Shown here: positions 48,069 to 49,038 of the stretch, in pieces | How the letters are laid out: each line of letters begins with the position of its first letter | Position numbering within the stretch: the first letter of the stretch is position 1 | Assembly: GCF_025857195.1 (NCBI RefSeq) | Contig: NZ_CP109787.1 | Span: 3,406,001 to 3,470,000 of the forward strand | DNA length: 64,000 nt | From: Leisingera thetidis | GTDB lineage: Bacteria; Pseudomonadota; Alphaproteobacteria; Rhodobacterales; Rhodobacteraceae | Direction of reading: 5' to 3' | Translations under genes and position numbers: made by a program | The notes under the pieces: generated by a model | What the model was told of the DNA's origin: nothing | Databases searched by the model: none | Seen by the model: the letters and a program-made list of their open reading frames with translations, nothing else

Positions 48069-48126
48069 TCTGCGCCTTCAAATGATCCCCCCGGATCATT
48101 TGATCCGCTGCGCAGACCCGCTTGAA
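48069..48126. repeat. Palindromic insertion, family C
   Basis: About 58 bp stand in place of one base in the conserved SYDNALAETIN codons. The inner stem TCAAATGATCC (48078-48088) / GGATCATTTGA (48093-48103) is perfect with a CCCC loop. An outer stem TCTGCGC (48069-48075) / GCGCAGA (48110-48116) closes it. The net gain of 57 nt keeps the frame, adding 19 residues. Confidence 0.8.
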
Positions 48127-48326
48127 CTCATAGCTGTCCCCAACGCTGCCGACGGAAGGTTCGATGCCAGCTTCGCCCAACCGTTCTGTGTATTTGATCG
48201 AAAGGTATTGGCTGCCGCGGTCGGAGTGATGAACAAGCCCCATCGCCTTTGTCCGCCGCCGCTCGTGAACAGCCTGTTCCAGGGCGTCGAGAACGAACCC
48301 GGCATGCGCCGAAGTGCTGACACGAC

Positions 48327-48374
48327 CCATTGACCGGCAGGCGATTTGGCCATGCCAAATCTGCCGAGAGGGGG
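48327..48374. repeat. Palindromic insertion, family B variant
   Basis: On the minus strand the block begins CCCCCTCTCG and ends CTGCCGGTCAATGG, like the two family B copies at 48551 and 48999. Its centre, GATTTGGC...GCCAAATC, is a different palindrome. It replaces codons between KIVG and VSTSA and shifts the frame. Confidence 0.7.
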
Positions 48375-48403
48375 CCGACAATCTTGCGGGCATAGGCGTC
48401 AAT

Positions 48404-48448
48404 GAGCGAGCCATTGAAGGCGCCATTGGTTCGAGCCCAATGGCGAGC
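48404..48448. repeat. Palindromic insertion, family A
   Basis: A 45-bp block beginning GAGCGAGCCATTGAAGG and ending AATGGCGAGC, with stem CGCCATTGG / CCAATGGCG. It sits between YVA and IDAYA codons and keeps the frame (net +39 nt). It is similar to blocks at 48641 and 48919, in the same orientation. Confidence 0.75.
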
Positions 48449-48550
48449 GGCGACATAGGCGAACCCTTTCCAGGTGGCGACATAGGTGAAATCGCTGACC
48501 CAGAGCATGTTGGGCGCGGGCACACGGAATTGCCGGTTTACCTTGTCCAT

Positions 48551-48590
48551 CCACTGCCCGGCAGCACATGCGCAGCATGTGCGAGAGGGG
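48551..48590. repeat. Palindromic insertion, family B
   Basis: This 40-bp block has stem GCACATGC / GCATGTGC and flanks CCACTGCCCGGCA and GAGAGGGG. Its reverse complement equals the block at 48999-49038 at 39 of 40 positions. It lies between PDKKAPCP and DKVNRQF codons. Confidence 0.85.
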
Positions 48591-48640
48591 GCACGGGGCT
48601 TTCTTGTCGGGCACCGTGGTTTTGTGCGGCTTGCCCCGGA

Positions 48641-48682
48641 GCGAGCCTTTGTCCGCCATTGGTCCGAGGACAATGGCGAGCG
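48641..48682. repeat. Palindromic insertion, family A
   Basis: A 42-bp block, GCGAGCCTTTGTCCGCCATT... ending CAATGGCGAGCG, with stem CGCCATT / AATGGCG and inner GTCC / GGAC. It lies between SMGLQG and RGKPHK codons. Confidence 0.75.
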
Positions 48683-48918
48683 CCTTGAAGCCCCATACTT
48701 TTCATCAGCCGGGCGACCGTGCAGCGGGCGACGTCAAAACCTTCCCGTTGCAATTGCCGCCAGATCTTCCGCACGCCATAGACCCGCCAGTTCTCTTCGA
48801 AAACACGCAGGATCTCGGGCCGCAATGCCGCGTCACGCCGGGCACGGTCCGACAACCGGGCCGGATCGGCCCGCTTCGCCAGATGCTCGTAATACGTGGA
48901 AGGGGCAATCGGCAGGAA

Positions 48919-48960
48919 GGAGCCATTGGAACGCCAGTGGTCCGAGAGACAATGGCGAAT
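48919..48960. repeat. Palindromic insertion, family A (diverged)
   Basis: A 42-bp block, GGAGCCATTGGAACGCCAGT... ending AATGGCGAAT, is the most diverged of the three family A copies; its stem carries a G mismatch. It lies between GVEPIC and LPIAPS codons. Confidence 0.65.
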
Positions 48961-48998
48961 GCAGATCGGCTCGACCCCATGCTCACCGCGATGCATGT

Positions 48999-49038
48999 CC
49001 CCTCTCGCACATGCTGCGCATGTGCTGCCGGGCAGCGG
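48999..49038. repeat. Palindromic insertion, family B (inverted copy)
   Basis: A 40-bp block, CCCCTCTCGCACATGCTGCG... ending CTGCCGGGCAGCGG, is the inverted copy of 48551-48590 with one mismatch. It sits near the start of orfB. Confidence 0.85.

Follow-up and report, generated by a model that had tools for sequence, protein, structure and literature searches.

The small palindromes of bacteria are mostly familiar as repeats outside genes that depend on a Y1 transposase. REPs are mainly extragenic. Rickettsia palindromic elements (RPE) occupy genes of diverse function, and RPE-1, which is longer, keeps the frame. The Byps, mobile bypassed elements of yeast mitochondria, are small mobile hairpins in genes. 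RPE are described as palindromes inserted within protein genes (PMC3733652). Some REP stems keep bulged or mismatched bases, and intragenic REPs are known, in one case at about the same gene site in two species (PMC3733652 and PMC8266576). The hairpins of REP and IS200/IS605 elements, as described in PMC8266576, combine a hairpin, fixed ends, duplication-free insertion beside a short motif and an unpaired stem base.

The stretch of DNA analysed here (the window, 64,000 nucleotides, G000:C1:3406001-3470000, where G000 is the Leisingera thetidis genome) contains an IS3-family element whose orfB is interrupted by seven short blocks. The best reading is that these blocks belong to several REP-like families of non-autonomous mobile elements in Rhodobacterales, each element being a single hairpin. 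Family B was searched for as CCCGGCAG, 8-30 bases and GAGAGG, and its ends are thus invariant by construction.

Like REPs and REPtrons, the blocks have a single short hairpin with a conserved foot and occur as scattered copies, and in family B the hairpin structure is conserved (covariation on 62 forms). The foot of family B is different, being CCCGGCAG and GAGAGG with no GTAG or CGTC (the search pattern required these ends). No cognate Y1 transposase (TnpAREP) was found in the L. thetidis genome. While REPs are mainly extragenic, 16 of 20 sampled B loci lie beside transposase domain matches. B inserts resemble RPE in lying inside protein genes, but RPE-1 keeps the frame and B keeps it, by length, in only 6 of 107 inserts. 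MITEs are likewise short and non-autonomous; B differs in inserting without a target duplication (empty compared to filled sites) and in having two ends that are not inverted repeats of each other. The likeness to Byps is that of small mobile hairpins inside genes. Unlike with Byps, bypassing of the blocks has no support; orfB shows low dN/dS between species and neutral variation among copies within one genome. No description of these hairpin elements was found in the literature searched, which bears out the first-pass annotation, where none was known in this lineage.

The IS3 element and its copies

The element and its coding parts are listed below.

47815..49429, minus strand: IS3-family element, 1615 bp, with terminal inverted repeats and four genome copies
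47815-47841 and 49403-49429: terminal inverted repeats of the IS3 element, intact
49052..49375, minus strand: orfA, intact, 107 aa, from its open frame and alignment
48538..49149, minus strand: 5' remnant of orfB, a 203-aa open frame with its stop after the block 3 frameshift
47854..48525, minus strand: 3' remnant of orfB, a 223-aa open frame; the orfB frame is regained after block 6

The whole element is present four times in the L. thetidis genome, and each copy has all seven inserts. Only 3 bases, close to one end of the window copy, distinguish the four. As far as searched, the genome has no intact copy; the remaining IS3 orfB matches are 27-31% identical, plus fragments. A search with the element ends gave 13 matches, of which eight are the termini of the four copies, two lie in fragments and three have two mismatches. 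Neither the first ten of these nor the orfB matches revealed an intact helper for the element in the genome, so any helper must have disappeared or reside in another place. No target duplications were seen around any of the four copies. Two of the copies have a 278-bp right flank in common, which suggests recombination, and recombination can remove target duplications (PMC11708052).

An Rfam scan of the window gave only rRNA and tRNA above the gathering score. A tRNA-Glu gene (49692-49768) adjoins a 395-aa open frame (49915-51102) right beside the IS. By eye the frame looks like a tyrosine recombinase, and the arrangement looks like that at an island border. Parts of an rRNA operon (23S, 5S) and tRNA are located at the window end (61141-64000).

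Seven inserts in orfB

Alignment of orfB to block-free relatives on Celeribacter, Agrobacterium and Cereibacter plasmids gave seven insertions of 38, 39, 37, 37, 39, 46 and 57 bp. The block ends are uncertain by a few bases.

49000..49037, minus strand: block 1, family B, 38 bp; empty site TTTATC|GAC
48919..48957, plus strand: block 2, family A, 39 bp, a length that keeps the frame
48642..48678, plus strand: block 3, family A, 37 bp
48552..48588, plus strand: block 4, family B, inverted relative to block 1, 37 bp; empty site CCATC|GGG
48411..48449, plus strand: block 5, family A, 39 bp, a length that keeps the frame
48327..48372, plus strand: block 6, B-like ends around another stem, 46 bp
48072..48128, unstranded: block 7, family C, 57 bp, in frame; 56 bp in three relatives

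The first-pass annotation had described seven interruptions of orfB with the element ends and orfA untouched. It had also placed family A there three times in one orientation, family B twice in opposite orientations plus a variant, and family C once. All of this was confirmed, the two B copies being 96% complementary over 45 nt and the variant lying at 48327-48372. Its count of at least three families also held, with several element families involved. Its block sizes of 40-58 bp were revised to 37-57 bp by the alignment, and the two blocks said to keep the frame became three, with lengths that are multiples of three (39, 39 and 57). The contrary reading that it had named, blocks as normal parts of a working IS, is rejected on the intact relatives without blocks, although several same-genus relatives share some blocks.

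Five of the six same-genus relatives aligned have some of the same block sites, and G005 has none. At the block 1 site the window, G007 and G006 have the same ends and different stems. A near-twin variant of block 3 was found in another IS3 family (site 870 of family Z). The ends of block 6 differ from those of B by one base.

The seven blocks were folded as DNA and compared to dinucleotide shuffles, with z values of -1.26, -1.65, -2.43, -1.19, -3.58, -3.69 and -5.08. In the fold test alone the two main B copies and one A copy were not significant; for family B the palindrome is settled by covariation.

With one mismatch allowed, the family A core had 27 matches in the L. thetidis genome compared to 9 for the control. 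Judged by eye on a handful of sites, family A seems to replace 3-4 target bases after GA. The exact core of family C is present in the four window IS copies, and a related core lies at C2:16803 in an IS fragment.

A second IS3-family element is present in the L. thetidis genome in three copies that are approximately 99% identical (L107:2143-3639, L108:2005-3500 and L109:1729-3210). It carries seven inserts, which include B, A, C-like and a further hairpin type. A further GC-rich hairpin insert of 43 bp is found in four copies of one IS5-type element (L275, L281, L282, L286), and is mostly deleted, uncleanly, in the sister copies L278 and L280.

Family B: distribution, hairpin and insertion sites

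Strict patterns were used for B and A, as loose patterns gave mostly noise. In the L. thetidis genome the B pattern matched 33 times and its reversed control once; four of the B matches (C1 742097, 1681920, 1801551 and 2739297) are without a palindrome by eye. All 21 Leisingera genomes contained matches, ranging from 2 to 63 each, some of them by chance (controls 0-3). A scan of a large genome collection found B in at least 120 stretches. Among the 80 B loci listed all but three are Rhodobacterales by name, the exceptions being Labrenzia, Robiginitomaculum and Enemella. When 385 genomes of the class were drawn evenly, strict B was found in six, made up of four of the five from the own family (L. 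thetidis included) and two of the 380 elsewhere. B was present in 102 plasmid records, and the ten genera named in that tally are presumably all Rhodobacterales. Among phages, B gave no more than two matches, both weak and partial.

The ten-base end TGCCCGGCAG was too common (120 matches, control 18) to pick out larger genes bounded by single B ends. A short B-like hairpin occurs after a AAATACTCCCG-like sequence near base 1500 in L127, L132, L135, L146 and L153. The sequence upstream of this short form is common to several Leisingera genomes, and long open frames overlap it in some loci.

Among the loci, 62 distinct B forms of 35 nt occurred. All 62 made six or more of the nine pairs, compared to 532 of 6200 shuffles. 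Pairing over the 62 forms was 94.6% of 558 cells, with changes on both sides in 121 cells. Covariation was 0.593 compared to 0.160 (sd 0.016) when shuffled and at most 0.128 with the partner slid. An unpaired T in the 3' arm was kept in 53 of the 62 forms. The hairpin of family B is settled because of this covariation test, which applies to family B only: the hairpin is kept while the stem letters vary.

The left flanks of 148 distinct B junctions show a preference for CCRTC before the element. Empty relatives were compared to 23 filled B elements, corresponding to 16 distinct sites, and no target duplication was seen across these 16. RTY^G fits the left boundary at approximately ten of the 16, one of them after a two-base boundary shift. 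Six of the empty sites misfit RTY^G, and some junctions have a changed base or two. The intact IS compared contain 5-10 CCRTC and 12-26 YRTCG sites on both strands together, and with so few motif sites repeated use of one site is not very surprising. One site can hold unlike stems in different genomes or in related IS.

Preference for transposase genes

For 79 of the 80 listed B loci (L224 was too short) the best open piece was taken on each side that had enough room, giving 149 pieces. Transposase families lead the Pfam tally of these flanks (25 of the 35 families listed). The most frequent were rve (19), DDE_Tnp_1 (14), HTH_21 (12), HTH_Tnp_1 (10) and rve_3 (8), and members of IS66, IS21, IS240, IS110 and DDE_3 were also present. 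Ordinary families numbered four among those listed, with one member each. The Pfam families beside B are taken, partly by name, to be typical of IS3, IS4/5, IS66, IS21, IS6, IS110, IS630 and IS91. The 83 control pieces, located 2.5-3 kb away, were ordinary genes. None of the 25 families listed out of 65 in the controls was a transposase by name, and two helix-turn-helix families that also occur in transposases appeared twice each.

Twenty B loci were then sampled at random from the 59 with enough flank. A transposase domain match was present on at least one side in 16, of which 15 were above the Pfam curated cut-off and one (L193) was below it. Two of the remaining four (L161 and L174) lie beside ordinary genes and two (L163 and L170) gave no family. 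At ten further loci of the L. thetidis genome, transposase or recombinase domains were found at L110, L112, L113, L114, L115 and L121, ordinary genes at L116 and L117, and no domain at L111 and L120. L117 probably matched the A core by chance.

The landing place of B inserts is the transposase genes of many IS families across Rhodobacterales, and not the window IS particularly. An active mobile palindrome using this IS as its landing site had been proposed by the first-pass annotation. The blocks are mobile and do land here, but their target is wider. The activity it proposed is supported only as insertion that is young relative to sequence divergence. The preference for transposase genes is a real surprise, and the best explanation gives no reason for it.

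Age, selection and alternative explanations

An intact IS3 element in Leisingera sp. M527 was compared to a copy in Phaeobacter inhibens S4Sm. The two are 92.6% identical, with 94 substitutions in 1274, and differ by exactly three B inserts (38, 40 and 45 bp) and no other gap. There is no stop in the compared codons, and silent to replacement changes are 51.5 to 16.5 in orfB. The B inserts are therefore young relative to this divergence, or the gene still works.

Hairpins could in principle land anywhere and survive mainly in transposase genes for want of counter-selection, as these genes are dispensable to the host. Block-bearing copies inside one Leisingera aquimarina genome do vary neutrally, with only block-bearing copies compared: family X has 6 silent and 19 replacement changes (pN/pS 1.02) and family Y has 9 and 25 (pN/pS 0.92). 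The three copies of the second L. thetidis IS have 4 silent and 8 replacement changes (ratio 0.61), which are too few to tell. Mere tolerance is nevertheless unlikely. It would lead one to expect more copies in the space between genes than in IS. The Phaeobacter and Leisingera pair also differs by its three inserts in 1274 bp within at most 94 substitutions. An even spread at this rate, which is an upper estimate because the pair was picked for carrying blocks, would give in the order of ten thousand inserts per 5-Mb genome, where 2-63 B matches were observed in each of the 21 Leisingera genomes.

A spread of the blocks mainly by gene conversion between IS copies, with new insertion occurring seldom, is quite improbable. 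It would fit L285, a relative of family X in L. aquimarina, which shares a block and 90 of 99 bases on one side; L285 and family X are 73% identical with gaps and 82% in aligned columns. At most shared sites compared, however, divergence in the flanks is almost as high as in the remainder of the gene. Unlike stems are found at one site in related IS, and the same element types occur in unrelated IS families.

It is rather unlikely that the hairpins are placed by the host, or kept for its benefit, disarming the IS and leaving a scar. Such silencing would agree with the preference for transposase genes of many families and with the location of all seven window inserts in orfB, with none in the element ends. 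It would also agree with the length rule, by which 101 of 107 B inserts shift the frame and 6 keep it. The lengths cluster on few types, though, and a small set of frequent stem lengths may be all that lies behind the frame bias. Among A inserts whose empty site is known, lengths divisible by three are frequent (39, 39 and 36 bp). No machinery was found, and block-bearing IS have nonetheless multiplied to 3-6 copies.

The age of the individual blocks was estimated against their flanks. At sites 3 to 6 of the window IS the blocks differ from relatives by 0-1 bases and the flanks by 9-17 of 120. At site 1 the G007 stem differs at 9 of 38 and the flank at 4 of 120. Site 2 (block differences of 2 of 39 and 8 of 38) and site 7 (block 4-5 of 56, flanks 15-17 of 120) are less clear. 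In total, the window IS and its relatives differ at 36 of 592 block bases and 160 of 1680 flank bases.

Outside the blocks the window orfB stays open up to its end and contains no further indel, and its dN/dS compared to block-sharing relatives is 0.08-0.18. G007 and G011, which share a 56-bp insert, are separated by 44 silent and 7 replacement changes, and their blocks have diverged about as much as their flanks. Changes in the three-block Phaeobacter copy are likewise mostly silent, and the window IS has four copies with no intact one found in its genome. These points would favour translational bypassing or RNA removal of the blocks, with orfB still yielding transposase. This is very unlikely given the neutral variation among copies inside one genome, the additional frameshifts outside the blocks in families X and Y, the occurrence of B in both orientations, and the blocks at sites 3 to 6, which look younger than the gene divergence and which the low dN/dS may predate. 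The low dN/dS and open orfB also count against the best explanation, as they are unexpected in a long-dead gene unless the blocks are recent. The same holds for the failure to find a mobilising enzyme or an intact helper in the L. thetidis genome, for the four of 20 sampled B loci with no transposase match, and for the six of 16 empty sites that depart from RTY^G.

Proposed mechanism and candidate enzyme

The preferred explanation, which is considered fairly probable, is that REP-like single-hairpin elements favour transposase genes as landing sites and are carried along by IS copies that are mobilised in trans. Insertion of the blocks would be the work of a single-strand (HUH-type) enzyme that recognises hairpins, a single-strand mechanism being suggested because the features of B resemble those of REP and IS200/IS605 hairpins. 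The same sites would be hit repeatedly because there are few motif sites per gene. By shifting the frame, most B inserts would inactivate the transposase. With intact ends and a related transposase that could act in trans, the IS copies would continue to spread, and the hairpins would thereby ride along.

A search for a REP-associated transposase (RAYT) had been proposed at the outset, and no Y1 transposase of this type was found in the L. thetidis genome, where the Y1_Tnp profile (PF01797) gave 0 matches. Y1_Tnp was found in 6 of the 21 Leisingera genomes and not found in 15. It was not found in G002, which has 63 B matches, nor in the L. thetidis genome, which has 33. The mean B count was 27.5 in the six Y1-bearing genomes compared to 12.9 in the rest, a difference that was not significant (Mann-Whitney P 0.11). 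Membership of the REP system is not claimed because Y1 was not found in the L. thetidis genome or in 15 of 21 genomes of the genus and the tendency in B is non-significant; a link to that system may nevertheless exist. A RAYT or IS200-type source was rejected on the absence of Y1_Tnp from G000 and on the Leisingera Y1 loci L320-L323, which have other end hairpins by eye. No mobilising enzyme for the blocks was found.

Other domains were seen in related elements of the L. thetidis genome that also carry blocks, namely a Y2_Tnp domain at L110 and tyrosine-recombinase domains at L113 and L115. Y2_Tnp is presumed to be an HUH-type enzyme, and the one at L110 is a candidate mobiliser. A bolder proposal, and a rather unlikely one, is that Rhodobacterales run or host a system that would insert hairpins specifically into transposase genes of many IS families at RTY^G, disarming transposons whose ends would still be mobile in trans.

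Significance

These elements form a widespread hairpin group whose sampled members are located for the most part within transposase genes. Filled sites and their empty counterparts, covarying stems and a target motif are all at hand, in a genome in which no Y1 enzyme was found. Two questions thereby become testable, namely how the smallest mobile DNA is moved and whether transposase genes can be singled out by elements or by hosts.
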